A stretch of 38,671 nucleotides of DNA, from contig JANQXM010000069.1 in assembly GCA_030729385.1 (NCBI GenBank), positions 1 to 38,671 of the forward strand, in the 5' to 3' direction. Both the position numbers and the translations under genes were made by a program. Every line of letters begins with the position of its first letter. Position 1 is the first letter of the stretch. This DNA comes from Opitutales bacterium (GTDB lineage Bacteria > Verrucomicrobiota > Verrucomicrobiia > Opitutales > Coraliomargaritaceae). Below are positions 3,101 through 18,385 of the stretch, piece after piece. Under the pieces are notes generated by a model that did no database searches, was not told the origin of the DNA, and worked only from the letters and a program-made list of their open reading frames with translations.

Positions 3101-6100
3101 AATCAGACTACCCACTTCGTCGTAAACTGCCACATCGATATCTCCTTGGGCATGTTCGAACTTCAGGTCCACGATGAAAATATCCTCATCGGACTCAGCT
3201 TGAACTAGATACCAATCTTCGTCGATTTGTGTCATACCGGAGAGCAGAGCTAGCTCTAGGGTGAAGCCATCATTACCGAACAATCCACGATTCCGAACAT
3301 CGCCAACTAAGTTGCGAGGCAACGCCGGCGCATCATTATCTCTATTTGGATTAGTAGCGGCAATCTCAAGAATATCCTCACTGTAGCTATTCCACATGAT
3401 ATCATATGGATTGCCTGAGAGGTCATTGAAGACCCTTAGGTAATAGTCACCTGCTCCAGCAGTGAGATGGATCCGCTCGACATCACCAAATCCATTCGAA
3501 CGAGCGACTAGGGTTTCGGCAGAATTAAAAAGTTCGATATCAATGTTACGACCATCATCTTGGTCAAAGGTGACCTCAATGATCACCCCATCATCACCGG
3601 CATTAATCGCGACTCGATACCAATCCTCATCTTCAGAGGTGGCATATCCACTCGTTTCAGAAATCCGGAAACCTTCACTGCCCAGGATGCCATCTGTTGC
3701 GCGATCGAAAGTATTGTTACCCTCATCGCCTTCATAGATATCTTCAGTGGTCGCGGCCCAATATAGGAGATAATCTGTTCCAGCATCGGAGCCACTGACC
3801 TTGACGTAGTATGTATCACCCGCAACAGCACCATATGGATTAGGACCATAGATAATGACTTCGTTATCTGTATCCGTATTCGCATAGGCCAGTTCTTCAC
3901 CCAGTGCATCGTAAAGTGTTAACTCGAGATTTCCATCTTCATGGGCAAATCGAAGGTCTACACGAAGGCTCACTTCACCTGGGAAAACCACGACTTCATA
4001 CCAATCCTCATCAAACTGAACACCTTTCAAGTATTCGTCTTCATTTCCGGTAATATCAGTGGCTGTTTCGAGGGTGTCATTTTCTTCATATTCATCATCG
4101 GGGGCAACAAGCCAATCGAGCGTATAGTTCTCATTGATGCCGTCACCAAAAACTCGAACATAATAATTACCCGGCTCTGCGGAAATTACGACTGATTCGA
4201 TATCTTCACCAATATCATCCGAAGTCCCCTTCAATATCAACGTAGGGTTCACTGAAGGGACACCTACGACACCAGTAGAATCAAAGTAAACTTCTATACC
4301 GATATTCCCCTCGTCATCGTCAAATCGGGCAACAACAGACAGGAATGAATTCGTCGCATCGGTGGAGAATGTAAACCAGTCATCATCAAACTGAGTCGCA
4401 GAAATCGACGGCAGCAATTGGATGTCAGCAGCCGTGGCGGAAGTATCATTCTCTTCATAGTCATCATCCTGAAGGATGAGCCATGTTAGGTCATAGATAT
4501 TGTAAACATCATCACCAAAGACCTTCACATAATTTGTGCCGGCTTGAACCGGGACAAAGAGCGTCTCCGAATCCTCTGTCGAGTTTGCGGTGTATTCGTT
4601 AGCCAGTGTATCAATGATAGTGAAATCGATCGCACCATTTTGATCTACATAGTCCAACGTGACGCGAAGCCATGGATAGTTGCCGGTTGCCTCAATTGCG
4701 AACCAGTCATCGTCGCCTTGTGTCGCATAATCGGTATCAGAGAGCTTCTGAGTATCCAGCAACGAGGTGTCATACGCCGTCTCCAACGTGTCGTTCTCTT
4801 CATAAATATCGATGATACGAGCGACCCAGTACAAGTCGTAATCATTACCTACATTCGGACCATAGACGCGAATGTAGTAAGTGCCGGCGGTCAAAGTTGA
4901 ATCAAGCAAGAGGATTTCATCGTCCACGATACCATCACGCGTAAAGATCGGATATCCCAAGGAGTCATAGATCTCGAAATCAATATCACCATCAACGTGG
5001 GTGAACAAACACTCTACATACAGACCTAGATTATCCTCAGGGACGTCGATCTCAAACCAATCGTCGTCTTTCTGAGTGCCTAGACCGAGGTAATTCGAAA
5101 GACGTGGGTCTAAACGAGTCAGCACTTCAGATTCCGAGCGCAGATCATTTTCTTCATATTCATCGTCACCAACTGTCAGGTCGAATACTTCATCAGCATT
5201 TAAAGCTGACCATGATAAGTCATACTCGTTGCCAGCGTCACCGTAATGCAGGCGAATGAAATAATCTCCCTCAACAGGATTTGAATAAATGATAGATTCA
5301 TTATCGGTGGAAGAAATTGCGCGAGCAACTAAGTAGCCAGCCGTATTGTAAACATCCACATCGATATCACCATCGGCGTGCGTAAAGGTAACATTGATAC
5401 GTAGCTGCGCAGTATCGGAACGAGTCGTCACGAGATACCAGTCCTCATCGGCTTGAACGCCTCGACCATCCAGCTTACGAAGTAGCTGGCGTTCATAACC
5501 GGACAGATCAAACGGCTCGCCGACATTGTCATTCTCTTCGTATTCATCTTCGGCAGGAGTAATATCCCAGAACAAGTTGTAAATATTACCTTTACCGTGA
5601 TTGAGCGGTTGCACCTCATCGCCAGTCGCCGCGATCTTGTAAGTCCCTGGGATAGGATCCTCCCAAACAACTCTCCGAACATTGCCATCACCCGCAGCTG
5701 CAAAGCTTATCTCTAATTGAGACTCATTAAGAGGAACGCCTGCCGATGTCGCTAATGTGAGATTGATGTTACCGTCACCCGCGTCGAATCCAAGTGCCAC
5801 TTCAAGCTTAGTCGCACCGACTGGCACTACGATTTGATACCAATCAGGGTCAGTCATCGTAGCATATCCATCGATAGCAGTCAGCCAGAAGCCTTCGTTG
5901 CCACTGATATCATATACTTGGTTAGACGCATCGTTGTCTTCATACGCGTCCTCAAAGGGCTCTTCAACAAACGGAGGCTCGCTGGAGTATGTCACTTTGA
6001 AATCATAGCCACTCAAACCGCTGATATCGGATTGAGCATCCACCTTAATGTAATATGTGAATCCAGTCGGCACATCCAATGTAAGCGTATTACTGAAGGT

Positions 6101-9100
6101 GAAGTCAGTGGAACTTAAGAGCAAATTACCGTTACCGTCATAAAGGAACACATTCATGAACCCGCCATCGAAGCTTTCATACTCGAGGATGACCTGCTCG
6201 AGGATGACCGAATTATCGATGGTGAACTTATACCAATCTTCGTCGGCACTATTTACGAAATTCTGTGCGGTCGCATTGTTGGCATAGGCGGAACTCGTGC
6301 CAATACCATCCACTTCAGACAACCATTTATCAATAATTGTCTGCCCTAAATCGAAAGCATCATCAATATCATCATTTTCAATGTCCTCGTCTCCATCCGT
6401 TCCCACGACTTCATACTTGTCGTCACGTAGAGTCTCGAAAATCAAATCGTATGAATTGCCGGCATAATCACCATAGACGCGGATATAGTATGTGCCCGGC
6501 GGAACACCCATGATCGCGACATTACCTGTAGGTGTAAAGTTGTCGGTATAATCTGCTGTTGCGACGCCACGGTGGTAGGTGAGGACTTCATAATCGTTCT
6601 CGGTCGCAGAAGTGTCAGGGAAGAACTGACTGAACGTGCTACTATCGTAAAGCTGGATATTAATATCACCCTCGGCATGAGTAAACAGCGCCCGGACATA
6701 GAACATCCGGATAAACGGATCACTTGGAATATCAATACGATACCAGTCTTCGTCATCTAGTATACCGAGGCCCAAGATTCCCGACAAACTAGTCGCGGTA
6801 GCGCCTGACAAATCGAATGCTTGGTCTTGAGTGTCATTCTCTTCGTAAAAGTCATCATCACCAATCTCCAAGATGCTCGCATTCCACTTTAGATCGTATG
6901 CGTTACGAACAGTCGAAGCGTCGGTAGTCTTCGCGACAATATAAAATTTGCGAAGTAGACCGGAGTAATTAGATGGCAAGATATACCGAATCGTTCCGTT
7001 TCCTGCAGTGCTGGAAACCAATGGAGCCGAGGTGTTATTAGCAGTGCCATTGTGCAATTCGAAGGTAATATTTCCTGCTGTCGCATCGTAATCGATGTCG
7101 ATAGTAATCAATAAGGCACCCGATTCTGTTGGGGTGAAGGTATAGAAGTCCACTTGGTCATCCATGAAGAAAGCAAGGCCCTTATAATCAGAGAGCCAGA
7201 CGCCTTCAAGCGCACCATTTAAACCATTTATGTTTTCTGCGGCCCCAGTGCTGTCATTTTCTTCGTAGTTATCCTTAGTTGGACCAATCGTTGAAGTGCC
7301 GCCAACAGCAAATTGGAACACTTCTGGTCCGTCGTCTGTATCGTATGTGATCAGCACGGTATCCAAATCGACACCTGTGGTGGTCGGGTCGTATGCAATC
7401 GTAAGATACTGACTTTGCTCACCCGGCAGTAGTGCCGGAGGAGCTGAAACAATGCTGAAAGGTCCACCAACCGCTAAGCTAACTGATAAATTAGTGATAT
7501 CAGAGGGCTCAATATTAGTTAGTAGGAATGTGCGCTGCACTGCTGGAGCGGCAACATAAGTAAAGCCGAAGTCTGTGTCGTTTTCGGTTTGGATATTGGT
7601 GTCGAGGGAAACGACAGCAACGTCGAGTTTATCGCCACCAAAAACCGCCAATGGAGGTATCGGCAATTGTCCGACAATGGAGTATTGCCCCAAGCTGGCA
7701 TAGTCAGTGAAACCAGTGGCACCATCTGATCCGCGACCAGTGCCTTCTACCGAGATAAAGTATACACCAGCCTCCAAGTAAGCATCCACAACCGATTCCA
7801 AATCTTCTGCCCCATCTGGCTCACCAGTCGCAATCAAGAGACCTGTCGCATCATAAAGTTTAATGGTTGCTGCAAGATTCGCACCTGCGGTCTCCGATCC
7901 TGTTTGAGGGTCGGGTGACATCACGTCGATCGGCACTGCAGAGAATGAAACATCGCCCTGTTCGGTCGAGAAACGGAAAAAGTCGATGTCGGCCTGACGT
8001 GAAATAAGTCCATCTGCACCCAGTTGATCGGGGCCAGTAATTGCTAAGGTGCCGACATTATTATCATCGAAGGCATTCGCGTAATCGTCGTTCTTAAAAC
8101 CAAAACCGTTGCTCGCATTACCGATGATGGCAACGTCATCTTCCGAATTATTTGCATTGGTGTATTCACCGCGGCTCCATTGGGTGGCTGCATCATAGAT
8201 ACCACCCGAAAAGCCTGCACCCATGATTGGCGACCAGCCTGGAGTATAACCCGCGGTATGACCTGGATAGTATTCCACATTTTGCGTGGTGCCATCGTGC
8301 CGAAGCCCAAAAGCGTGCCCCCCCTCGTGAGAAATTGTGTCCGCACAAGTGTATTCAGTCGGATTGAATGTCCAGACAACTGGTGAATCTGTGCGGAATG
8401 AATTAAGGTATGCAACACCACCGGCACCAGGAGCAGCTGTCGTAGTCGGCGTAATCACACACATCATGCGCTTATCGCTCTCTGCGGCATCATAAACCGC
8501 ACGGTCAGTCGTCACATTTATATCAAATGGTGCAAAGTCTTCAACGACACGGCGCCAGACTCTCGTTACAAAGGCATTATCGTCAGCGCGAACGTGTGGC
8601 GCAGCATCAATTCTAGCACCGCCCAACCAAGGTGTGCCTTCCACGACTTCACCGTCGAAGTCTAAATAGTAAACGAACTCAGAATTTGGATTATTCTCCA
8701 AGGCTACTGTGTAAATAGGACCCGATGGAGCAGATCCACTCTCTGTTTCTGAAGTCATTACAATGGCATCGGCACCAGGGGCACGTAACCCAGTTTGAGT
8801 GTAAATAGTGCCCTTCTGCGCACAAAAGATATCACTGACTTCAGTCGCTTGAACCAATAACTGTGGCTCACTCGCATCGACTAGATAATCGGTTGCAGTG
8901 AATGCACGGGATTCATCGAAAAAGAGCACATGTGCCGTGATTTTATCATGTGCATTCGTGGTGACGACCAAACGGCCTAAATCATCATCGAGAGCCAGCG
9001 CGTAACTGTGAGCAACTGGATGCTCCTCCTTGAGCATCGTTACCGTGCCCGAATAGACTTTCCCTCCGAGAGTAAAACTACCGCGTGCGCCGACATGGCT

Positions 9101-9478
9101 CCCTTTAAGGAAATCAAATGTGCTGCGAGGAGTGACTTGGATCTGCAACTTCGCGAAATCCTTGAAGATATAATCTAAGCTAGGATTCGTCGAAAGGAAT
9201 GGTTTGCTTGGTGTCGTAGGTTCTTCTGCTGCGAGGCAATGTGCACAATCCGCGGCATGATCCTTATCGACTACTTTATCTTGAGTAATATTGTTCGTTT
9301 CAGACAACGAAGCCACTTCAGTGGTTACTGGAGTGGCTACTGCATCGGAGCTAGCGATCTCCGAGGGAGTTGCGCCGCCCTTATCGTCTGATGGACCAAG
9401 AATGACAAATGCTCCAATAAGAAGCACGACAATGAAAGTTAGCGATAGCGCGCGTTTGTTGAACTTAGAATCGGACAT
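185..9478 (-). CDS. Giant secreted metzincin-type zinc metalloprotease with about 16 PPC repeats and a TSP3-like C-terminal module
   Basis: A 3097-residue exported protein. Residues about 10-28 form a hydrophobic signal or anchor helix (SLTFIVVLLIGAFVIL). A pro-region follows, then a protease domain with the zinc site HEGGHAFGLRHDG near residues 383-395 (HExxHxxGxxHD, metzincin/adamalysin-like) and a likely Met-turn SPIMGAG near 418. A degenerate PPC domain (about 465-620) and a choice-of-anchor/DUF1573-like beta domain (about 630-730) come next. Fifteen recognisable PPC-type repeats then run to about residue 2940, each opening with a D-x-YEENDT-like motif, a DDDWY box and an AGTYYIRVYG-like strand. 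Residues about 2979-3097 are a C-terminal module with a TDGD...N..EFA calcium-loop-like start and a final FFRLTV strand. No Shine-Dalgarno motif is seen; the start is the ATG before the signal helix. It is probably a secreted or surface protease; the substrate is unknown. It follows the pilus-like operon but has its own upstream terminator, so it is likely transcribed separately. Confidence 0.9.
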   Translation of the reverse strand: MSDSKFNKRALSLTFIVVLLIGAFVILGPSDDKGGATPSEIASSDAVATPVTTEVASLSETNNITQDKVVDKDHAADCAHCLAAEEPTTPSKPFLSTNPSLDYIFKDFAKLQIQVTPRSTFDFLKGSHVGARGSFTLGGKVYSGTVTMLKEEHPVAHSYALALDDDLGRLVVTTNAHDKITAHVLFFDESRAFTATDYLVDASEPQLLVQATEVSDIFCAQKGTIYTQTGLRAPGADAIVMTSETESGSAPSGPIYTVALENNPNSEFVYYLDFDGEVVEGTPWLGGARIDAAPHVRADDNAFVTRVWRRVVEDFAPFDINVTTDRAVYDAAESDKRMMCVITPTTTAAPGAGGVAYLNSFRTDSPVVWTFNPTEYTCADTISHEGGHAFGLRHDGTTQNVEYYPGHTAGYTPGWSPIMGAGFSGGIYDAATQWSRGEYTNANNSEDDVAIIGNASNGFGFKNDDYANAFDDNNVGTLAITGPDQLGADGLISRQADIDFFRFSTEQGDVSFSAVPIDVMSPDPQTGSETAGANLAATIKLYDATGLLIATGEPDGAEDLESVVDAYLEAGVYFISVEGTGRGSDGATGFTDYASLGQYSIVGQLPIPPLAVFGGDKLDVAVVSLDTNIQTENDTDFGFTYVAAPAVQRTFLLTNIEPSDITNLSVSLAVGGPFSIVSAPPALLPGEQSQYLTIAYDPTTTGVDLDTVLITYDTDDGPEVFQFAVGGTSTIGPTKDNYEENDSTGAAENINGLNGALEGVWLSDYKGLAFFMDDQVDFYTFTPTESGALLITIDIDYDATAGNITFELHNGTANNTSAPLVSSTAGNGTIRYILPSNYSGLLRKFYIVAKTTDASTVRNAYDLKWNASILEIGDDDFYEENDTQDQAFDLSGATATSLSGILGLGILDDEDWYRIDIPSDPFIRMFYVRALFTHAEGDINIQLYDSSTFSQFFPDTSATENDYEVLTYHRGVATADYTDNFTPTGNVAIMGVPPGTYYIRVYGDYAGNSYDLIFETLRDDKYEVVGTDGDEDIENDDIDDAFDLGQTIIDKWLSEVDGIGTSSAYANNATAQNFVNSADEDWYKFTIDNSVILEQVILEYESFDGGFMNVFLYDGNGNLLLSSTDFTFSNTLTLDVPTGFTYYIKVDAQSDISGLSGYDFKVTYSSEPPFVEEPFEDAYEDNDASNQVYDISGNEGFWLTAIDGYATMTDPDWYQIVVPVGATKLEVALGFDAGDGNINLTLATSAGVPLNESQLEISFAAAGDGNVRRVVWEDPIPGTYKIAATGDEVQPLNHGKGNIYNLFWDITPAEDEYEENDNVGEPFDLSGYERQLLRKLDGRGVQADEDWYLVTTRSDTAQLRINVTFTHADGDIDVDVYNTAGYLVARAISSTDNESIIYSNPVEGDYFIRLHYGDAGNEYDLSWSALNADEVFDLTVGDDEYEENDLRSESEVLTRLDPRLSNYLGLGTQKDDDWFEIDVPEDNLGLYVECLFTHVDGDIDFEIYDSLGYPIFTRDGIVDDEILLLDSTLTAGTYYIRVYGPNVGNDYDLYWVARIIDIYEENDTLETAYDTSLLDTQKLSDTDYATQGDDDWFAIEATGNYPWLRVTLDYVDQNGAIDFTIIDTLANEYTANSTEDSETLFVPVQAGTNYVKVFGDDVYNIYDLTWLILQDDDYEENDTSATAADIQLLPSISATQFDDDWFTFSTDATNSFLSVVARFDDDEGNIGIEVYFDSTGVVGVPSVNPTLILKGTSDDIGEDIESVVISAEPGNYYVRVFGDGINENYTLDWLVAPDDEYEENDTLETATDITGNEDEYLKGVQFDEDWYEVVVFPGEVSLRVDLRFAHEDGNLELTLYDALGEELAYANTDTDNEVIIYGPNPYGAVAGDTYYVKVSGSDAGTDYLLYWAATTEDIYEGDEGNNTFDRATDGILGSEGFRISETSGYATSEDEDWYRVAINAGDDGVIIEVTFDQDDGRNIDIELFNSAETLVARSNGFGDVERIHLTAGAGDYYLRVFNDLSGNPYDIMWNSYSEDILEIAATNPNRDNDAPALPRNLVGDVRNRGLFGNDGFTLELALLSGMTQIDEDWYLVQAESDEDIFIVDLKFEHAQGDIDVAVYDEVGSLILDSGGVDVDVFGEGGVFSPNSQIESTDDGERLTVRDLPPGFYLVCVYGYGILPPKDIPGWAPNDFDPFAEDLNDAANNQFVDTTDPDESSYYTFSVPIARGMGNTYSMRWNSTIEDIYDVETPDTEDVEFNDDIYHRTFAGDDGIPETVDVPLIDQYGVVDDDGIVDDTLRTFTFDVGPDLILGTNDDIEVEYRPEYNTFGLVQFDDDWYEYTVDVGGGLPHSLFVRIGFEHIEGDLGLRVYKASALDTQRLADGELTEADLELALIGESLSTNDNETIEYVSATAETYYIQVIGEDLGTPYGLTIRAFLDDEWEENDTLAEADDNADITELVGLPLFAIQRDTDYYRMEIPADQVHLFGGITPINNAEDLVATITDETGTQLPNGYIQTAVVSPEPKTYYLRVTGSNSGSSYFFSWSFDNVDEYDVFMLPDFEDPEILVGQNDTPAGAPDLTRQRLEPVYIPTPRPAWTYINPITEFGFDYGLIGSLPLFVTNPIFDPFGHATQEGEDWYQLKIPSWALQTVQQEENNNTFQALKRDYYTQLLVDIEFAHGDGDINLEVYDSYSIDPDNFDPENLPAPIARSESSTLEDGTESVAARVDVLAHDLIYYIRVYGDNNANDYSLKWDYTAVDAYEEEDTNNFVDLAFDLTSVDGQSTERTWLDLIEYPVDVNGDGDTADDGFKAPRGYGSQTTDDWYTIVVSPGSTELEVHCDFFSDDNPDYRFNPDNLDMDIEVYFLAGNDDDDSTRDLRKPVLVRRLANKTPEFTRYTVDNPQDVLADWTDLRQEFDTFAIDAPGIYFIRVFFDNRTHPYTLYWDDVGDGDGNNVGDDVIIDDYLNGNWSFAAPEDLPINLLENPYENTDGDRYPNWAEFALLLDISKWDYVMIGKSIKDFGGQDYFHFEYYRSREAVALGYEFIVEETEDLNFDGTEAVHVSTTTVDSQVERVVYRCSQPLSVQDKCFFRLTVEEPEPK
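655..7280 (-). repeat. Tandem PPC-domain-coding repeats within the giant protease
   Basis: Fifteen repeats of roughly 95-200 codons. Each carries, in order, a D-x-Y-E-E-N-D-T-like opener, a D/E-D-x-D-W-Y/F box, a G-D/N-I-x-x-x-L-Y-D strand, a T/S-x-D-x-E-x-I stretch and a Y-Y-I-R-V-Y-G strand. The repeats are diverged: most DNA identity sits in the opener and the DWY box. Several copies (residues about 2030-2160, 2190-2330, 2430-2600 and 2680-2760) are lengthened by Asp/Asn/Gly-rich insertions that look like calcium loops. In known secreted proteases PPC domains are often cleaved off after export; a protein consisting mainly of them more likely uses them as a stalk or binding array (inference). 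Confidence 0.85.
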
Positions 9479-9577
9479 AAGGGGTCAAGCTATGAAACCC
9501 AGAATTTTGTGATGATTAACTGATTATGTATTAATCGCTATTAAGCATCGATGGTTTCATTATATTTTAGATAAGAA

Positions 9578-9606
9578 CAGGAAGCCGCCGAAACGGCGAC
9601 TTCCTG
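9578..9606 (-). terminator. Terminator at the end of the pilus-like operon
   Basis: The 13-nt arms 9578-9590 and 9594-9606 pair with one mismatch around a 3-nt loop. On the minus strand the hairpin is followed by TTCTTATCT. It sits 28 bases past the secretin stop codon and before the giant protease start, so it separates the two transcription units. Confidence 0.75.
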
Positions 9607-9633
9607 CAAAGGGGAGATCATGACTGATCTGTT

Positions 9634-12372
9634 TTATTCCGAAGCAGCTGGATCAATAGAGCGATTTGCAGTGCCAGCAGGAGTCATAATAGTTGGATTC
9701 TGGAACAGTGAATTTGCATTCACGTTACGATAATTCTGACGAGCAGGTGAGCCACCTGGGCTGACCAAATTCGCAGTCACGAAGATCAAAAGGTTACGCT
9801 TTTGGCGTGTTTCACCCTCGGAACGGAAGAGGCGACCAAGACCTGGGATATCACCCAATACTGGAACCTTGTCGTTTACAGTCTTCACTTCATCGCGAGT
9901 CAAACCACCCATCACAACAGTCGCACCATCAAAGACGGTCACTTCTGTCGAGATTTCACGAGTCGAGAATACGGGCTGGTAGAAGCCTGCAGGCACAGTG
10001 ACTGTAATACCACCGGTAACGGCAACACTCGGACCACCATACTCAACAAATCCTTCAAACTCAGTCACACGCGGCTCGAGAATCAAGCTAATGGTATCGT
10101 CATTTTCAACATTCGGCGTTACCGACATCTCGACACCGATATTACGTGTTACGAAATCTTGAGGTGTGCCAGCTGTGATCGCAACTGCAGAACCTGCGGA
10201 GTCTCCGCTCGTGCTGCTGCCACCACCACTACGACCCACATCCGCTTCGATGTCGCCGAAGCTTTCAGGGTAACGCAACTCTTGTGCGACTGTAATAGTT
10301 GCACGTTTGCCGGAAAGCACTGTCACCTTCGGCGCACTCATCAAATCGCTACCCACTTTACGAGATAAAGCACGGATCGCGAGATCCACATCGTAGCCAT
10401 TGAGCGACCAGCCTGTTGCGGTGAATAAGCTCGTTGCAGAGGAAGCAAGATCAATAGCAGTTGAGATATCAGGAGCCGAATTATCAGCAACGACATCGCC
10501 ATTAATTGTAATCGCGGAATTATTTGAACTAATACCAAATGCATCGTTTAGGCTGCGGTTGTTGCCCGTGCTGCCAGATCTGGCATATTCACCAGTTGGA
10601 TTGCCGAAGCTGTCTGCAATGGGGAAGCCACCATCACTATATTGATTGAAGCTATCGCCAACACTCCAGTCAAAGCCGACCTCTTCGAGATCGTTCTGTG
10701 TGACTTCAAGGAACTTCGCTTCGATTTCAACTTGCTTCACTTCATTGTAGTTACGAAGGATGATACGCATGCGCTCCAAGTTACGACGAGTTTGTGTAAC
10801 GATCAGTTGCTCACCATCGAAAGCGAGGCTAGTGCCTGCGAGCTCGAAGTTAACGCCTGCACTCTGGAAGAACCCTTGAAGGGCCTCGACTTCGTCAGAA
10901 GCAGAAGGACCGCTGCCACCGCCACCAGATGAAGGCGGAGCAAATGGATCAACAGGGCCGGAAGAACCGCTGCCACCGCCATCGCGGAAACCAGTCAAAC
11001 GGATAACAGTTGCACGTGAAATCGGGAAGAACTCAGTAACTGTTGTTGAGCTACCGTCGATTGAGTCGCTGGGTGCAACAGTGACCGCGTCGTCGCCGAT
11101 ATCGTAATTGAAATTCACCTGTTGTGTAACGAATTGCAGGATGCGATCCAAGCTAAGGTTACGCAGGCTGATGTTTACACGTGGGTTCTTTTCATTCGGA
11201 TCGAAAAGTGGCACGATGTTCACACCGACTTTTTCGTCGTCATATTCGAGTGAAAGCTCGGAGAGTGTCTCGATAACACGAGTCAGTTCCATGCCGGAGA
11301 AGTTCACCTGAGGGATAACGATCGAGTTCATCTTTTGAGCGGTCGCGCTAACACCTGTTTTGTTGCCTGTTTGTTCGACAGAAACGTCGAAGACTTTAGG
11401 ACGCTCCCAGCTTTGATCCACCTCTGTGAGCATTTGCTGGCGAGTCTTGTAGAAGTTTTGCTTGTGCACCCCACCTAGGATCTCGGCGATCTTAGTTTGG
11501 AAAAGCTTGGCTTCGGGATTGTTGGCATCACGCGCTTCCACTTCACGGAATGTAGCGGACGCACCATCATAATCACCATTTAAGTATTGAGCACGGCCAC
11601 GAGTCAGTAGGTCGCGAATGATTTTACTTTGAGCAACATACTCTGGGCTAATCGCATTGATATCCAACTCATACGGATCGGAAATTTCCTTATTCAATTT
11701 GTTTTCCAAAGAGCGGGCTTTGGATTCGCTGCCTCCAGCGGCACGGTAAGTGTTAACAAGCTCTTCTGCGCCTTTCAGGTCGCCGGCATCAGCCTTTGCC
11801 TTCGCTTCGGAAAGAATCACATTGGACTTCGCATCATCAATAGCATCGAGTGTGCTTGCTGTGGAAGTGCTACGTGTGAGGCTTGAAGCAGCAGAGCTGA
11901 GCAAGCTGTTCGCATCTGAATAAGCACCTAATTTAACAAGCTTATCGGCTTCACCGAGTGCATTCTTAGCAGCAGCCAACTTTTCAGATTGAGAAGCGGC
12001 AGCGGCAGCGGCGAGTGCATCAGCACCGGTTTCGCCGGATGTTGCTTGCATTGCTTCTTCAGCGCTCACGTTTGGAGCTTGACCATAAACAGCAGCACCA
12101 CCGTTACGACGGTCCATTTCATTATTGATGGAAGCGAGCAAGCGCTGGACGTTTTCGTCATTAGGAGCAATCTTGATCAACTCCTCGGCTTTTGCCTTAG
12201 CAGTCTCGAGATTCCCGGAATCACGAGCACGCAGGGTTTCAGCCATCAGACGAATCTTCTCAGGCGTGCTTTGCGCGTCGACCGTATGAGGGGCGATAAA
12301 TGTAAATGATCCAAGCGCACCAGCCATAAGAATGGCGGAAATGCGCATGCGTGCTGCGAGGTATTTTTTCAT
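9634..12372 (-). CDS. Outer-membrane secretin of a type IV pilus-like system (Amuc_1098/PilQ type)
   Basis: Forms the outer-membrane gate of the trans-envelope complex encoded by the operon. The N-terminal signal peptide starts MKKYLAARMR and ends near the Ala-rich HTVDAQ. A TPR-like, Ala/Glu-rich helical region of about 300 residues follows. A secretin N0-like domain (about 358-435, with NISLRNLSLDRILQFVTQQV) comes next, then an N1-like domain interrupted by a Gly/Ser/Pro-rich linker (about 463-490). The secretin beta-domain (about 550-866) carries VEIEAKFLEV and the signature VPVLGDIPGLGRLF followed by LLIFVTANLV. About 912 residues, longer than many PilQ proteins because of the TPR-like front. 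I place the start at the ATG at 12372, since the longer frame would begin with TTG two codons earlier. It is the last gene of the operon, 40 bases after the Amuc_1099-like gene. Confidence 0.92.
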   Translation of the reverse strand: MKKYLAARMRISAILMAGALGSFTFIAPHTVDAQSTPEKIRLMAETLRARDSGNLETAKAKAEELIKIAPNDENVQRLLASINNEMDRRNGGAAVYGQAPNVSAEEAMQATSGETGADALAAAAAASQSEKLAAAKNALGEADKLVKLGAYSDANSLLSSAASSLTRSTSTASTLDAIDDAKSNVILSEAKAKADAGDLKGAEELVNTYRAAGGSESKARSLENKLNKEISDPYELDINAISPEYVAQSKIIRDLLTRGRAQYLNGDYDGASATFREVEARDANNPEAKLFQTKIAEILGGVHKQNFYKTRQQMLTEVDQSWERPKVFDVSVEQTGNKTGVSATAQKMNSIVIPQVNFSGMELTRVIETLSELSLEYDDEKVGVNIVPLFDPNEKNPRVNISLRNLSLDRILQFVTQQVNFNYDIGDDAVTVAPSDSIDGSSTTVTEFFPISRATVIRLTGFRDGGGSGSSGPVDPFAPPSSGGGGSGPSASDEVEALQGFFQSAGVNFELAGTSLAFDGEQLIVTQTRRNLERMRIILRNYNEVKQVEIEAKFLEVTQNDLEEVGFDWSVGDSFNQYSDGGFPIADSFGNPTGEYARSGSTGNNRSLNDAFGISSNNSAITINGDVVADNSAPDISTAIDLASSATSLFTATGWSLNGYDVDLAIRALSRKVGSDLMSAPKVTVLSGKRATITVAQELRYPESFGDIEADVGRSGGGSSTSGDSAGSAVAITAGTPQDFVTRNIGVEMSVTPNVENDDTISLILEPRVTEFEGFVEYGGPSVAVTGGITVTVPAGFYQPVFSTREISTEVTVFDGATVVMGGLTRDEVKTVNDKVPVLGDIPGLGRLFRSEGETRQKRNLLIFVTANLVSPGGSPARQNYRNVNANSLFQNPTIMTPAGTANRSIDPAASE

Positions 12373-12412
12373 AATCAATTTCGGGAGTCGTGTTGTTTGT
12401 TAAAAGTTAGAT

Positions 12413-13321
12413 CTAAAAATCAATGCTAAAGGAGCCATCATCAAATGAGGCTTCAACTGCTGGGGTTACGGGATTACTTATGGTTTTAGAGGCGGGTTTG
12501 CTAGTTAGGACGGAAAGCACTTTTGTCTCCGCATCACGTTCTTCATCCCCTTGTTTCTTCACTGTTACGGTTAATTCTTCAAGGTTTATTTGCTCTAGAG
12601 TATATTGACCCTGTGGTGTCTCAAAGGTCTGACCTTCCTTATTCAGTAAGATACGAACGGAACTGTCCTCTTTCGAAGCGATAGTAATGTCAATTGCTTC
12701 GACCAGCAGACGCTCGCCATGCTTCAGGGTGATTTCCTCATTCGTGCGTAGGTCTTGAATCTTAACAGTGGCTACTTTCTGGATATTTCCAGCGCCATCG
12801 CGAATGCGCTCCACATTAAAATCAATGACTTTAAACTCGGACTTTGCGACTTCTCGCCCGATACGAGTGCGGATACGCTGATCCAACTCTTCATCGAAGA
12901 GTAAAATCAACACTTTGGTCGGATCATCACGATCCTCCTCCACATAGCCTTCGATTTGGATGCGATATGGCTTGTTAGTCGTAAAATCAGCAAGATAGAC
13001 ACCGAATGGTGGTTTTGGTGGGCCTACAACCCAGCCAATAGGAGTCAATTCCCCGTTCTCTCCAATGAAAACTTTAGGCGGCGTGAAAACATCATAAGTC
13101 CACCCAGCGCCTCTTGATTGCTCAACGGGCATAGGCCATGCGGCCGTAACATCGGTGGAGGTAGGCACAGGAACGACCGAGTAGGCATCTCCCGTGGTCT
13201 CAACAGAGATCGTAGGCTTACCTGGTGGGACAGCACCGGATTTAACGACATATAATCCCACTCCCGCGAGGAGTGCCAATACGGCCAGTGCTAATACAAG
13301 CTTATCGTAAACTTTATTCAT
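12413..13321 (-). CDS. Pilus-like system inner-membrane protein, Amuc_1099 type (PilP position)
   Basis: A 302-residue protein with a short cytoplasmic start, one membrane helix at about residues 9-27 (LVLALAVLALLAGVGLYVV), and a periplasmic part of mixed beta structure. A Pro-rich segment (about 40-110) precedes two beta-rich stretches around IQIEGYVEE and ITLKHGERLLVEAIDI. I recognise it mainly by position: it sits between an Amuc_1100-like gene and the secretin, as in Akkermansia muciniphila, and where pilP sits in classical pilMNOPQ operons. PilP normally links the inner-membrane PilN/PilO pair to the secretin, so a linking role is inferred. The gene begins 6 bases after the upstream stop codon, so translational coupling is likely. 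Confidence 0.75.
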   Translation of the reverse strand: MNKVYDKLVLALAVLALLAGVGLYVVKSGAVPPGKPTISVETTGDAYSVVPVPTSTDVTAAWPMPVEQSRGAGWTYDVFTPPKVFIGENGELTPIGWVVGPPKPPFGVYLADFTTNKPYRIQIEGYVEEDRDDPTKVLILLFDEELDQRIRTRIGREVAKSEFKVIDFNVERIRDGAGNIQKVATVKIQDLRTNEEITLKHGERLLVEAIDITIASKEDSSVRILLNKEGQTFETPQGQYTLEQINLEELTVTVKKQGDEERDAETKVLSVLTSKPASKTISNPVTPAVEASFDDGSFSIDF

Positions 13322-13327
13322 GCGGGT

Positions 13328-14308
13328 TTAAGAAGGGTTATTCTCCGATTCGGAAGGGATGATAATTTCAATAAATTCGAGAACGACCGTAAAAGTCGAA
13401 ATATTCTCTGAGATAACAGGCTTTTGGTCTTCCTTGGGCTCCTCTGCTGAAGCTGGCGAAGTGCCACCAAAGCCGCCGAATAGGTCTTCGAGACCGCCAC
13501 CGCTTGGCTTTGCAGCAGCGACGGTTTCACTGCCTTGCGGACGATCCACTTCAATACTTCGAACGACAATAGGCAGATCGAATTGAGCAAGACTATTTAT
13601 GAATATACGAAGCGAGTCGGTGTAGCCTTGGAAGGTGATACTAAAGGCAAGCGTGTCGATGGCGCCAGGCACACGGGCAGAGATTGCTGGAGCGATCTTA
13701 AAGCCAGACTGGGCAGTGGCTTTAGCCTCTTTGCCGGTCTTCTTGACTTCAAGCAATTCACGCTCGACGGCTTTGATCGCAGTGGGATTAGCGGTGAACA
13801 ATTTATCAAGCAGGTAGACCAAAATTTGACGCTGCTTATCCATGGCCATGTTCGCCTTCTTATCCTGAATGGGCTCTCCCTTTTCTAAATAGAGGTCAAA
13901 ACCAAATCCAAAATTTGATTCCGTCAGAGGCGTAACCTCTCCCTCGGCATCAGTAAAGGTAGCCGCACGGCGCTGGTATTCAGAGATATATTGCTGAATC
14001 GATGACATAACGCGGACACCATCCCGCGAAACAGTCATCTGAGAGCCGCGTTGCAGATTCAAGCGAATCTTCTCCAGCTCGTCCACCAAGTCGGCGACAT
14101 TCTGTTCGGCTGCGGCAACGTTCTGAGCACTCGGCGCGGGCGAAGCCACAAGCAAATTCTTTAATTGAGCCTCAGCGCTATTAATTTTTTTCTGGGCTGA
14201 ATCGACCTTGCCAGCCTCAGCAAACGCGAGGTAAGCGCCCGCGGCAAATGCCAACAGACAGATCAAGATCAGCAGAGATAAGGCTAGATTTTTCTTAATA
14301 AAATCCAT
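13328..14308 (-). CDS. Amuc_1100-type pilus-like protein (PilO position)
   Basis: A 326-residue bitopic inner-membrane protein. One membrane helix lies at residues about 7-29 (NLALSLLILICLLAFAAGAY). A periplasmic coiled coil follows (about 33-90, with SAQKKINSAEAQLKNLL and AEQNVADLVDELEKI), then a two-part alpha/beta region. Length and layout match Amuc_1100 of Akkermansia (about 317 residues), which is encoded in the same gene order. TM, coiled coil and ferredoxin-like region is also the layout of PilO, and the gene occupies the pilO slot here. Residues about 275-300 are a Gly/Ser/Pro-rich linker (GGGLEDLFGGFGGTSPA). It starts 5 bases after the PilM-N gene. Structural role inferred; confidence in family is good but based on recall. 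Confidence 0.8.
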   Translation of the reverse strand: MDFIKKNLALSLLILICLLAFAAGAYLAFAEAGKVDSAQKKINSAEAQLKNLLVASPAPSAQNVAAAEQNVADLVDELEKIRLNLQRGSQMTVSRDGVRVMSSIQQYISEYQRRAATFTDAEGEVTPLTESNFGFGFDLYLEKGEPIQDKKANMAMDKQRQILVYLLDKLFTANPTAIKAVERELLEVKKTGKEAKATAQSGFKIAPAISARVPGAIDTLAFSITFQGYTDSLRIFINSLAQFDLPIVVRSIEVDRPQGSETVAAAKPSGGGLEDLFGGFGGTSPASAEEPKEDQKPVISENISTFTVVLEFIEIIIPSESENNPS

Positions 14309-14313
14309 GATTA

Positions 14314-15981
14314 TTATAGTGGCTTAGCAGGGTCGATGACCAAGTTAATGCTAAAAGGGAGAACAGGTAGACCTTCACGAAGTCTCGTCCAAGTGAGAGT
14401 GGGGCCTACTGAGGAAACAACAAATTCAGATTCCTCAAAGCTAGATTGAAGGCCATTAATACGACGGGTAAGCACTTCTTCGTCGATAGCTGTTCCGCCT
14501 TCTACTTGATCGCGCACGAGCATTTGCCCCATGACTACGACTTCATATGAAGGCTTACCATCTTTCGACACCGCGCGGATAACTTTCAAATCATCCAGCC
14601 AAACATCTTCAGCCGTCGTCAGACTCTCTTGGAGCTCAGCAAAAAACTGAATCCAATTCGTCTTCGAGTTGAGCAGCCCTTCGACACGCTTGATAGAATC
14701 GCCTAGAGCTTTCGCTTTTTCGGCATTTTCTTGAATCGCAAACTTACGCCCTTGAATCGGGGCCACTTCAGCTTGAGTCGCAAGAGCCACTTCCTCATAG
14801 CCAGCACTCACTTGCTTATAAGCAACATAGGCAGGCCAAGGAGCCAAGGCGAACAATATGGCCGCCGCATATAGAAACGGCTTTTTCGCGGAGAATGCCA
14901 TTTCGCTTTGAATATCATCAGGCAGCAAATTGACACCTGCGCTATCGGGAAGCGACTTGCGAACAGCCTCACCGATAATCTCACCGACTTGCAAGCGAAG
15001 CTCCTCCATCGGGATAGAGATGTCGGCATCCAAGGTGACACCTTGAAGTGGATCGAAGTATTCAACCTTAATTTTTTGAGATTCTGAAAGTTTTTCCGCA
15101 AGCCCGGTCAATAAGGCACCACGACCATTTAACAAAATGCGCTTCGGCGCATTGCCTTGCTTTTGTCGGCGATAATTGACGATCGAACGAGTAATTTCTT
15201 GGCTCATCCGGCGGATAAAAGAGTCCGCGCAAGTAGTCAGGAGCTTACCTCCAGAGTCATCATCCGAGTAGCTAGAGTCATCACCGAAGAACTTATGCTT
15301 CACCTCTTGCGCTTGGGCAAATGGCTTACCGATGCTATCGGCGATATTCTGCGTGAGCGTATTACCGCCAAGCGCAATATTCCGCACAAAGAACTCATCT
15401 CCGTTACAGAACAACAAGTTGGTAGAACGTGCACCAACATTAATCAGCAGCACATCCTCAGTCTGTCCGGGGTATGCGAACTGCAGTGCATTAAAATCAA
15501 GCACTGTAGCGGCACTAATTGCCTCAACCACTAATCCTGCAGATGCAACACTGCGGCAGATGTCATCAATCGTGTTCGACTTACAAGCGATGAAAAGAAC
15601 CTCGGTCTCAACACCATCGTCGCCGACCACCTGGCTATCCCAAACTACTTCGTGCAATGGATAAGGGATGTTCTGTTGCGCTTCAAAGGCTATCACCTGA
15701 GCACGTTTTGACTCATCCACATTGGCAATACGAATGGTCTTAGTCAGGACCTGATTGCCAGGAATAATAATAGTCGCCTTACCGGAAAGCTTATGAGTGC
15801 GAGCTAAAGTTTGAAGCGCATCACCAACGGCGCCGATCCAAGCATCGTCATTCGAGTAATCGTATTGAAGACGCTCGTAGACAAGCTTGTCGATTTGAAA
15901 GCCGTTACCCTGAGGGGACACATAGGCAGCGGTGACGCGACTCGCCCCGCAATTAATAATCAATCGTTTTGAATTACTCAT
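14314..15981 (-). CDS. PilM-PilN fusion protein (Amuc_1101 type)
   Basis: A 555-residue protein. Residues 1-345 are a PilM-type actin-like ATPase domain: the N-terminal strand IINCGASRVTAAYVS, EAQQNIPYPLHEVVW (typical of PilM), the second phosphate motif LLINVGARSTNLLF (179-191) and an adenosine-motif-like ILLNGRGALLTGL (282-294). A PilN-like part follows: NLLP at 351-354, a membrane helix at about 367-386, a helical stretch, and a periplasmic alpha/beta domain. In classical operons PilM is cytoplasmic and binds the N-terminal tail of a separate PilN containing NLLP; here both lie on one chain. The adenosine motif reads NGRG rather than the common SGGG, so nucleotide binding may differ. It is preceded by the Amuc_1102-like gene (45-base gap) and followed 5 bases later by the Amuc_1100-like gene. 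Confidence 0.88.
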   Translation of the reverse strand: MSNSKRLIINCGASRVTAAYVSPQGNGFQIDKLVYERLQYDYSNDDAWIGAVGDALQTLARTHKLSGKATIIIPGNQVLTKTIRIANVDESKRAQVIAFEAQQNIPYPLHEVVWDSQVVGDDGVETEVLFIACKSNTIDDICRSVASAGLVVEAISAATVLDFNALQFAYPGQTEDVLLINVGARSTNLLFCNGDEFFVRNIALGGNTLTQNIADSIGKPFAQAQEVKHKFFGDDSSYSDDDSGGKLLTTCADSFIRRMSQEITRSIVNYRRQKQGNAPKRILLNGRGALLTGLAEKLSESQKIKVEYFDPLQGVTLDADISIPMEELRLQVGEIIGEAVRKSLPDSAGVNLLPDDIQSEMAFSAKKPFLYAAAILFALAPWPAYVAYKQVSAGYEEVALATQAEVAPIQGRKFAIQENAEKAKALGDSIKRVEGLLNSKTNWIQFFAELQESLTTAEDVWLDDLKVIRAVSKDGKPSYEVVVMGQMLVRDQVEGGTAIDEEVLTRRINGLQSSFEESEFVVSSVGPTLTWTRLREGLPVLPFSINLVIDPAKPL

Positions 15982-16026
15982 GTATTCTGTTTCTTATAAA
16001 TAGTGTTGTCGTCAAGCAGCACCACA

Positions 16027-16611
16027 CTACTTACGGACATCGCGACGCAAGAACGTAGGCATGTCGCTGATGCGTCCAAGGTATTCTGCAGGACAAAAAT
16101 AGACAGGCATCAATAAGTGCTCGTTTTGACCCGCTGCGTTTGAAGTAAATGTAGTCAGCGCCGGAAGATTGGGGATATTCGGGCTAAACGCCTTCGAACC
16201 TTTACGTGGAGGCTGAAGCGCTCCCTTCACGGACACTTCCACATAGTAGTATTTCGGCTCTTGCGACTGAATCTGATCGCGCTCAACGATCAAGCCAGGG
16301 AGATAAAAATAAACGTTATAATTTTCGCCCTTCTCCATGATGACGATCTCTAACTCAGAGGAATAATAATCAAACGTTTCGGCATACTTGCTCTCATACG
16401 CGAGATACACTTTCACTTTAATTTCTTCAACGAATCGAGAATCGCGCGCATCCGGCAGTTTATTATCACCACAATTCAATTCGATCTCCATCTGGATCCA
16501 ATCATCGTCGGTCTTATTAAAATCGACTTTCTTTACCTCTACAGCCTCTTGGGCAAATGCAGTGATCGCGGAGACGATAAATATGAATATAGGGTATAAA
16601 GTTTTTTTCAT
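16027..16611 (-). CDS. Exported pilus-operon protein, Amuc_1102 type
   Basis: A 194-residue protein with a clear signal peptide (MKKTLYPIFIFIVSAITAFA, cleavage expected before QEAVEV). The mature protein is predicted beta-rich and has no other membrane segment. It contains VDFNKTDDDWIQMEIELNCG and a later YYVEVSVKGALQPP stretch; the end is basic (FLRRDVRK). As the first gene of the operon it corresponds in position to Amuc_1102. Its biochemical role is unknown; a periplasmic or surface accessory of the secretin machine is the simplest inference. A stem-loop lies in its leader at 16634-16650. Confidence 0.72.
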   Translation of the reverse strand: MKKTLYPIFIFIVSAITAFAQEAVEVKKVDFNKTDDDWIQMEIELNCGDNKLPDARDSRFVEEIKVKVYLAYESKYAETFDYYSSELEIVIMEKGENYNVYFYLPGLIVERDQIQSQEPKYYYVEVSVKGALQPPRKGSKAFSPNIPNLPALTTFTSNAAGQNEHLLMPVYFCPAEYLGRISDMPTFLRRDVRK

Positions 16612-16633
16612 AACAGTTTATGGGGAATGACTG

Positions 16634-16650
16634 GTATTCGTGCTGAATAC
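16634..16650. promoter_or_regulatory. Perfect inverted repeat in the leader of the pilus-like operon
   Basis: GTATTC-GTGCT-GAATAC: a 6-bp perfect inverted repeat with a 5-nt spacer, 23 bases upstream of the first operon start codon. It could be a dyad operator or a small leader hairpin. There is no T-tract, so it is not a terminator. A convincing -35/-10 pair for the operon was not found in 16651-16804. Confidence 0.3.
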
Positions 16651-16804
16651 GGGTATGAACCTTAGACAGTTACGTGCCTGCCAGACGTATAGCAAACCAT
16701 TTTTGCCCCAGTTTACCAATTTAACGGATATTTTTCGCCCTTAATAAATATTACCAGAAAAATTGAATTGCGATTCACTTCTTCCCGCAAAATTTTCACC
16801 CCCC

Positions 16805-17302
16805 ATGGCTTCTCCTTTACCCTACAAAATCAGCGCATTAGTCTTCGTGCAAAACACCGCTGGCGAACATCTGCTAATTCAGCGCCGCAAAGCACCGAAT
16901 AAAGGCTGCTGGAGCCCAATCGGCGGCAAGTTAGATATGAGCACGGGCGAATCTCCTTACGAGTGTGCACGCCGAGAAATTGCCGAGGAAATTGGGCTGA
17001 CCACGACCGACCAAGATCTACACTGCTTCGGCTATATCGCCGAAAAAAGTTATGAAGGTGCCGGACATTGGCTGATGTTTTTATTCGACTGCACCAAACG
17101 TATCGAAAAATTGCCCACCACCATCGACGAGGGACACTTCGCTTTTTATTCACGGACCGCAATCGACACCCTCGCGATTCCTGAAACAGACAAAAGCCTC
17201 GTCTGGCCTTATTACGACCAGTTCCACAAGGGCTTCATCGGGCTACGTGCCGACTGCGCCACGGACGGGCAACTGCAGATCATAGAAGAGCTCAAGCTCT
17301 AG
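16805..17302 (+). CDS. Nudix hydrolase (MutT-like)
   Basis: About 165 residues forming a single Nudix domain. Members hydrolyse nucleoside diphosphates linked to another moiety; the substrate cannot be read from the sequence. The Nudix box spans residues about 40-65: GGKLDMSTGES..., ending REIAEEIGL with the metal-binding glutamates E58, E61 and E62. The loop between GGK and the first Glu is two residues longer than the usual GGK-x-E-x-GE pattern. I use the ATG at 16805; a longer frame starts with TTG at 16763 but has no supporting site. It converges on recF with 9 bases between the stop codons and is divergent from the pilus-like operon. Confidence 0.88.
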   Translation: MASPLPYKISALVFVQNTAGEHLLIQRRKAPNKGCWSPIGGKLDMSTGESPYECARREIAEEIGLTTTDQDLHCFGYIAEKSYEGAGHWLMFLFDCTKRIEKLPTTIDEGHFAFYSRTAIDTLAIPETDKSLVWPYYDQFHKGFIGLRADCATDGQLQIIEELKL

Positions 17303-17311
17303 AACTCAAAA

Positions 17312-18385
17312 TCAACCCGCGGGCTTAAAGCTGCCCGCCTGCACCTCGACGACGGACCATGACTCCGCATCCTGCGGCAATTCCGTCCCAGTCGCGATGA
17401 TCTGATAGTCCGAAGGGCAGGCTTTCCAGAACCCTGCCTTTCGGTGCGGGTCCAGCTCGCCCAACACATCGTCCGCAAGAATGACAGGCTTCAATCCGAG
17501 GCGATCATGGAAAATACGCGCCTGAGCAATCCGCAAGGCCACGCACAGACCACGCTGTTGCCCGTCCGAGGCATACTCCCTCGCACCACCAATGGATAGA
17601 CACAAATTGAAATCATCACGATGCGGCCCTTTTTGAGTGGAGCCCATCATTTCGTCGCGACGACGATTCTCATGAAGCAACTGACAGTAAGACTCTACAT
17701 CTCCCAAAGGCACGCTGGGCTTAAAGTCGAGTTCCGGCCCCTCCTCTGCTTCAGCAATATCAGCATACACTTTGATCAAATGCTGGCGAAGCACCTCCAC
17801 CTCAGCAGCACGATGCTGCCCGACAAGCACGGCATATGGCGCTATTTCCGCCTCGAACGCAGATAGCTCTCCAGCCGAACCGCCTTTTTTCAATAAACGA
17901 TTACGCTCGGCGACGCCCCGATGATAGTTACGCAGTGCATCATAATAGACGGGATCGACAGCCGAAAGTGTGAGGTCAACAAAGCGGCGGCGCTCCGCGG
18001 GAGCACCTCGCAAGATCATCAAGTCGCCCGCGCTCAATGGCACCACAGGAAAGCGCCCAATAAAATCTCCCAAACGTGACACACGCTGACCATCGAGCTG
18101 CACCTTTCGCCCTGCGGAACCAGACTGCACCTCCAACTCCGTTCGCCCCAACGACTCATGCTCCACCGAGTAAACCGCCGCAAAGCTAGACTCACCCTGC
18201 CGAGTCAGCGCAGACATGCTTTGTGTTCGGAAAGAGCGCAGCGCCGTGACCAAGCCCAAAGCCTCTAATAAATTCGATTTCCCCTGCCCATTCGCACCAA
18301 CTAAAAAACTACGGTCCGCCTGCAAATCCAGCTCCGCAAAAGCAATATTACGGAAATTCTGCAGTCGAAGATAGTGGAAGCGCAT
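17312..18385 (-). CDS. recF: DNA replication and repair protein RecF
   Basis: RecF is an SMC-like ATPase that helps load RecA at single-strand gaps. It has 357 residues, the usual length. It opens with MRFHYLRLQNFRNI, the typical RecF start. The Walker A motif GANGQGKS is at 30-37, the RecF-typical GPHRDDF and the ABC signature SDGQQRG lie in the C-terminal half, and Walker B VILADDVLGELD is at about 300-311. The start is 15 bases after the cysteine desulfurase stop codon in the same direction, so the two are probably co-transcribed. It is not next to dnaA/dnaN here, the common location in many bacteria. Confidence 0.95.
   Translation of the reverse strand: MRFHYLRLQNFRNIAFAELDLQADRSFLVGANGQGKSNLLEALGLVTALRSFRTQSMSALTRQGESSFAAVYSVEHESLGRTELEVQSGSAGRKVQLDGQRVSRLGDFIGRFPVVPLSAGDLMILRGAPAERRRFVDLTLSAVDPVYYDALRNYHRGVAERNRLLKKGGSAGELSAFEAEIAPYAVLVGQHRAAEVEVLRQHLIKVYADIAEAEEGPELDFKPSVPLGDVESYCQLLHENRRRDEMMGSTQKGPHRDDFNLCLSIGGAREYASDGQQRGLCVALRIAQARIFHDRLGLKPVILADDVLGELDPHRKAGFWKACPSDYQIIATGTELPQDAESWSVVEVQAGSFKPAG

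Follow-up and report, generated by a model that had tools for sequence, protein, structure and literature searches.

A five-gene operon on a contig of an Opitutales bacterium (Verrucomicrobiota) raises the question of whether it encodes a type IV pilus alignment complex with PilM and PilN as a single polypeptide, or a different machine built from related parts. Classical type IV pilus operons run pilM-N-O-P-Q, and PilM binds the NLLP-containing tail of PilN. The related locus of Akkermansia has already been described in print as a type IV pilus cluster that includes PilM and PilQ (PMC10688800, PMC13174399). The locus itself is known, and an earlier identification of PilN or PilO is possible; what appears to be new is the PilN part of the fusion, the resemblance of one protein to PilP, the range across the phylum and the pairing with motors.

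Organization of the operon

Within the window (the whole stretch of 38,671 nucleotides that was analysed), five consecutive open reading frames lie on the minus strand. They encode, in order, an Amuc_1102-family protein of 194 aa (16027-16611; NF042424, E 0.0012), a fused PilM-PilN protein of 555 aa (14314-15981; NF045709, E 3.9e-94), an Amuc_1100-family protein of 326 aa in the PilO position (13328-14308; NF038287, E 2.6e-21), a PilP-like Amuc_1099-family protein of 302 aa (12413-13321; NF042425, E 5.4e-8) and an Amuc_1098-family secretin of 914 aa (9634-12378; NF042912, E 4.9e-131). The intergenic gaps are 45, 5 and 6 bases, followed by 34 bases if the secretin begins at its listed TTG or 40 if it begins at the in-frame ATG six bases further inside, at 12372, which is the more likely start. 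The sequence-only reading had described five same-strand genes with gaps of 45, 5, 6 and 40 bases and a secretin last, and this was borne out with the ATG start and a secretin domain match (PF00263) of E 7.8e-35.

A terminator-like hairpin with a 14-bp stem and 9 GC pairs is found 3' of the secretin (9577-9607, minus strand); it comes from a consensus scan only, which returned 11 such sites in the region compared to 7.6 expected. Because the hairpin follows the secretin, the operon seems to stop there, and we regard it as the probable operon end. No Rfam family was found within 9000-17500, and no pseudopilin gene among the window's reading frames adjoins the operon. Beyond the operon and the hairpin, positions 185-9478 encode a secreted protein of 3097 aa that contains PPC repeats and a region weakly resembling reprolysin, and homologs of it occupy the same place in several relatives (L056, L059, L060 and L063).

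All five genes match the NCBIfam families named for Amuc_1102, 1101, 1100, 1099 and 1098 (E 4.9e-131 to 0.0012), and none reaches the curated equivalog cut-off (18.5/55, 316.6/650, 76.4/180, 32.8/50 and 438/750 bits, respectively). Judged by these scores, the five proteins are divergent relatives of the Amuc_1098-1102 proteins and not NCBI equivalogs.

A PilM-PilN fusion in the second gene

The second protein had been read as a PilM-like domain followed by an NLLP motif, a membrane helix and a PilN-like part, and both structure prediction and comparison of its residues 345-555 with PilN, two of the checks proposed at that time, agree with this reading. The PilM domain (PF11104) is matched over residues 10-321 with E 9.6e-31. 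In the predicted model, which has a mean pLDDT of 86, residues 2-343 align to the PilM structure 2ych_A with Z 32.4 over 320 residues at 2.8 A. At the junction lies the NLLP motif (residues 351-354; 14920-14931, minus strand), of which L352 and P354 are conserved at 90% or more; the pattern [ND]-L-x-P is present in 35 of 37 aligned relatives, remote ones included. A hydrophobic stretch at residues 369-387 corresponds to a membrane helix modeled at about 355-387. The model continues with a long helix (381-457) and then a strand-strand-helix-strand-strand arrangement (460-549) that we take as the periplasmic domain. Its order of elements is that expected of the permuted ferredoxin fold common to PilN, PilO, GspL and GspM (reviewed in PMC4471445).

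Among PDB chains, the best match to a profile built on residues 345-555 was Myxococcus PilN (3jc8_Na, E 1.7e-6), beginning at the NLLP motif, and the second-best match was an unrelated coiled coil (E 0.024). The whole-family profile matched the same chain from PilN residue 3 onward (E 4e-6). The profile match spans residues 349-471 only, that is, the NLLP motif, the helices and the first strand, and the Pfam PilN family was reached by just two of the 37 family members (E 0.034); the fold proposed for the last 85 residues therefore comes from the predicted model, whose order of elements fits PilN. By hhalign, the C-terminal profile gave weak scores with both E. coli HofN (11.6% probability) and the N protein of an unfused set in the same genome described below (29.6%). 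The whole-family profile also aligns through the junction of an engineered Pseudomonas aeruginosa chain in which PilM is joined to PilN residues 1-12 (5eou_A), placing the NLLP motif against the PilN part; that construct stops soon after the peptide, whereas here an entire PilN-like part follows. The fusion claim therefore holds, although the sequence-only reading omitted a precedent: PilM and PilN parts in one chain are the architecture of GspL/PulL in type II secretion (PMC10191384, PMC4471445).

The remaining operon proteins

Pfam showed no PilN, PilO or PilP across the operon proteins, and single-sequence PDB searches with the Amuc_1100- and Amuc_1102-type proteins gave no match; profiles were needed. 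The profile of the 326-aa family matches the Amuc_1100 structures 6kny and 6lad (E 3.3e-14). Crystal structures of Amuc_1100 show two abb motifs (PMC13119276), and from these structures and the profile match we infer a PilO fold. Operon position and Amuc_1100 homology support the 326-aa protein as the PilO counterpart. It begins with an N-terminal membrane anchor helix that has no conserved signal-peptidase site behind it, and for this reason the Amuc_1100-type protein is more likely anchored in the inner membrane than in the outer. Such a placement would conflict with published localization, since Amuc_1100 has been reported at the cell exterior and in envelope fractions (PMC5332112, PMC10688800).

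The predicted model of the 302-aa protein (pLDDT 82.8) has a membrane helix at residues 3-28 in place of a lipobox, which is absent from the sequence, and two beta domains at about 108-152 and 163-271. Its top VIA-align match was Myxococcus PilP (3jc8_Pa; 67 residues at 2.8 A) with Z 7.0, a level attainable by common folds, and the next match had Z 3.4. Foldseek on the model found nothing under 0.001, and the family profile found no PDB chain. As modeled, the protein resembles PilP. The 194-aa protein carries a cleavable signal peptide (AFA-QE), and the A-x-A-Q site is kept in most Opitutales relatives; the protein is predicted to be soluble in the periplasm or exported. Its family profile matches the Amuc_1102 crystal structure 7dsz (E 9.6e-8). 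The secretin has an N-terminal TPR-like region and an N0/STN domain, with weak matches to TPR and STN, and then the secretin domain; no AMIN domain was found by Pfam at E up to 1. The proposed order M/N-O-P-Q is thus upheld by the structural match for M, the profile match for N, PilP as the top structural match for P, and position together with Amuc_1100 homology for O.

Compared to the PilMNOPQ proteins of type IVa pili (Myxococcus, Pseudomonas, Thermus), the operon shares the gene order, similar M, N, P and secretin components and the PilM-binding NLLP segment, and PilB, PilC and PilT motors are encoded in the genome. It differs in that M and N are one chain, an extra Amuc_1102-type gene is present, the membrane helix of P comes without a lipobox, and TPR-like repeats are matched in the secretin but AMIN is not.

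Conservation of the locus in Verrucomicrobiota

The Amuc_1098-1102 locus of Akkermansia muciniphila, also described as MUL2, has the five homologous genes in the order 1102-1101-1100-1099-1098. Identity between the fused proteins is about 25-30% in loci titled A. muciniphila, and the genomic setting differs. The operon lies directly before coaE-rho in other Verrucomicrobiota, including records titled A. muciniphila, but has no coaE-rho behind it here, where coaE-rho instead precedes pilB-pilT-pilB-pilC.

A match to the fused protein was present in 45 of 57 related genomes. Among 57 named loci from Opitutales, Verrucomicrobiales and Chthoniobacterales, the Amuc_1102-type gene was not recognized beside the fused gene in some, and some absent genes are artefacts of a crude reading-frame picker in GC-rich DNA; the order of that gene followed by M/N-O-P-Q is nevertheless kept in most complete loci, down to 20-30% identity. 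Conservation of order at such low identity indicates that the arrangement is not due to chance, and the operon is confirmed as real and conserved. In some relatives, two or three Amuc_1098-type secretins occur in tandem (L130:12783-18050, L132:12535-17611, L153 and L154), and two genomes (G032 and G013) each carry the fused gene in duplicate, complete or nearly so, for which a mixed assembly is possible.

Across the phylum, the Amuc_1101 model found a match of some strength in 278 of 288 genomes; the 30 genomes scored as lacking the gene comprise 10 with no match and 20 with E above 1e-15. Almost all of the strong matches among those listed fall in frames of 511-778 codons. With frames of this length phylum-wide, the M-N fusion appears to be the rule across Verrucomicrobiota. 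The locus has been reported in Akkermansiaceae, often in other Verrucomicrobiales and in fewer Chthoniobacterales, and as absent from Methylacidiphilales (PMC13174399); its range extends here to Opitutales and many other families of the phylum.

Motors and other machines in the genome

The earlier observation that PilB, PilT, PilC and a pilin are absent from the window was correct, but its suggestion that the operon might serve secretion or a compact pilus was not sustained. The genome search it had proposed found all of them elsewhere. In total the genome holds five PilB/GspE-type and several PilT-type ATPases, several PilC/GspF proteins, three secretins and 20 prepilin-like N-termini, together with just one PilM_2 protein. 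Since PilB, PilT, PilC and prepilins are encoded elsewhere in the genome, secretion or a compact pilus is not favored, and the motors favor a pilus over secretion. One contig, C37, carries the cluster coaE-rho-pilB-pilT-pilB-pilC; the operon and this cluster are on separate contigs of the assembly. A different contig, C52, has an E-F-prepilin set with a GspL-like gene, and C35 has pseudopilins with GspL/GspM-like genes. On contig C68 (L047:2334-6942) a 433-aa secretin directly precedes an HlyD/MacA-like protein and MacB-like ABC genes, an arrangement that looks as if a secretin had replaced TolC. Two different PilB-type ATPases in tandem beside pilC, with or without pilT between them, recur throughout the phylum (L010:1558-6124, L200:9048-12375, L207:5292-9815).

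Among the 57 relatives, whose hits were classed by hand (C37-type meaning at least about 48% identity or 340 bits, or a fragment more than 60% identical), 40 had both the fused gene and a C37-type PilC, 4 and 3 had one alone and 10 had neither (p 5e-6). The fused gene showed no association with the C55-type GspF (p 0.53). In a phylum set of 70 genomes, made up of all 30 poor matches and 40 hand-picked positives, a C37-type PilC (330 bits or more) was present in 39 of the 40 fusion-bearing genomes compared to 5 of the 30 fusion-poor ones (39/1/5/25; p 5e-13). These p values ignore kinship; the genomes with neither gene span at least eight families. All 11 fusion-bearing genomes tested had a PilT-family ATPase above the cut-off. 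Relatives such as Akkermansia lack the C37-type PilT ortholog and carry two other PilT-family genes, and in Akkermansia-like genomes pilB-pilB-pilC lies apart from these two. In one genome without the fusion (G048; L204:4460-9108), the site retains coaE-rho-pilT but has neither pilB nor pilC. Exceptions were also seen: G015 has the motors without the fused gene, and G044 and G036 show the reverse. A joint cluster of the operon with pilB-pilC was not found in 20 phylum loci, where coaE-rho is the sole link.

A separate pilMNOPQ set already filling this role had been named as grounds for doubting the proposal, and such a set was found in part. Contig C67 (L046:8926-13781) has an unfused M-N-O-P-Q-like operon whose secretin is close to PilQ/GspD and whose M and N proteins matched no Pfam family. 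In the 57 relatives its M gene is associated with the C55-type GspF (25/3/0/29; p 3e-13) and shows no association with the C37 PilC (p 0.23). Because this set goes with another GspF, and because many operon-bearing relatives lack it, it does not replace the fused operon.

A type IV pilus machine or type II secretion

Most likely, the operon encodes both the alignment complex and the gate in the outer membrane for a type IV pilus machine found widely across Verrucomicrobiota, with PilM and PilN fused. The principal alternative, which we consider improbable, is a type II secretion-type assembly in which the fused protein is GspL, followed by GspM, GspC and GspD, and which exports proteins such as the giant neighbor at 185-9478. 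GspL is likewise a PilM-PilN fusion and GspC is membrane-anchored without a lipobox, like P here, so these two features together are the type II arrangement (PMC10191384), and the secretin has a small score advantage for GspD over PilQ (137 versus 122 bits). However, the fused protein does not match the Pfam family T2SSL (GspL) at E up to 1, in contrast to its strong PilM_2 match, and keeps an NLLP-type motif that is absent from two fused GspL-like proteins of the same genome. Its presence tracks the pilB-pilC cluster and shows no association with the C55-type GspF, and the pseudopilin set on C35 has GspL/GspM-like genes of its own. A group-specific glycan-capture or uptake device with polysaccharide-binding surface structures and the Amuc_1100- and Amuc_1102-type proteins outside the cell, as published under the MUL2 view for Akkermansiaceae (PMC13174399) and in keeping with the reported exterior location of Amuc_1100, is likewise improbable given the PilO place of the Amuc_1100-type protein and its anchor with no conserved cleavage site, and overlaps with a pilus in any case, as polysaccharide binding may be a use of a pilus and not another machine.

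The analysis shows the gene order, the homology of the parts, their predicted folds and the co-occurrence of genes; for the type IV pilus machine, we infer that the products form a physical complex, are paired with the C37 motors and act as a pilus. The PilM and PilN parts would be a single bitopic inner-membrane protein, with the actin-like domain in the cytoplasm against the PilB/PilC motor and the NLLP segment adjoining that domain as a built-in ligand. The periplasmic, ferredoxin-like part would pair with the Amuc_1100-type PilO, the PilP-like protein would bridge the inner frame to the secretin, and the Amuc_1102-type protein may be an exported partner. The motors would be supplied by the C37 cluster. 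The anatomy is a mosaic: the M-N fusion and anchored P are as in type II secretion, and the NLLP segment, the PilM sequence and the motors are as in type IV pili. By definition this is not a classical PilMNOPQ system, having a fused M-N and neither lipobox nor AMIN domain, but it should work like one. An extension that we put forward as speculative, and hold to be rather unlikely, is a phylum-wide retractable pilus that mainly hauls bound polysaccharide through the secretin into the periplasm (the "selfish uptake" of Verrucomicrobiota); Amuc_1100 would then natively be PilO in the inner frame, and only a released fragment or shed material would reach hosts.

Significance

The Akkermansia locus has been studied mainly for Amuc_1100, a probiotic candidate that has been assigned to the outer membrane or to a pilus. 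Should the operon be M/N-O-P-Q, Amuc_1100 would be PilO, an inner-membrane frame protein, and claims of surface exposure need a direct test. A natural PilM-PilN fusion would mean that the GspL type of joining also occurs in an apparent pilus machine, with the NLLP segment retained even though there are no longer two chains for it to bring together. Its pairing with a single pilB-pilC cluster names the genes for a clean deletion test.
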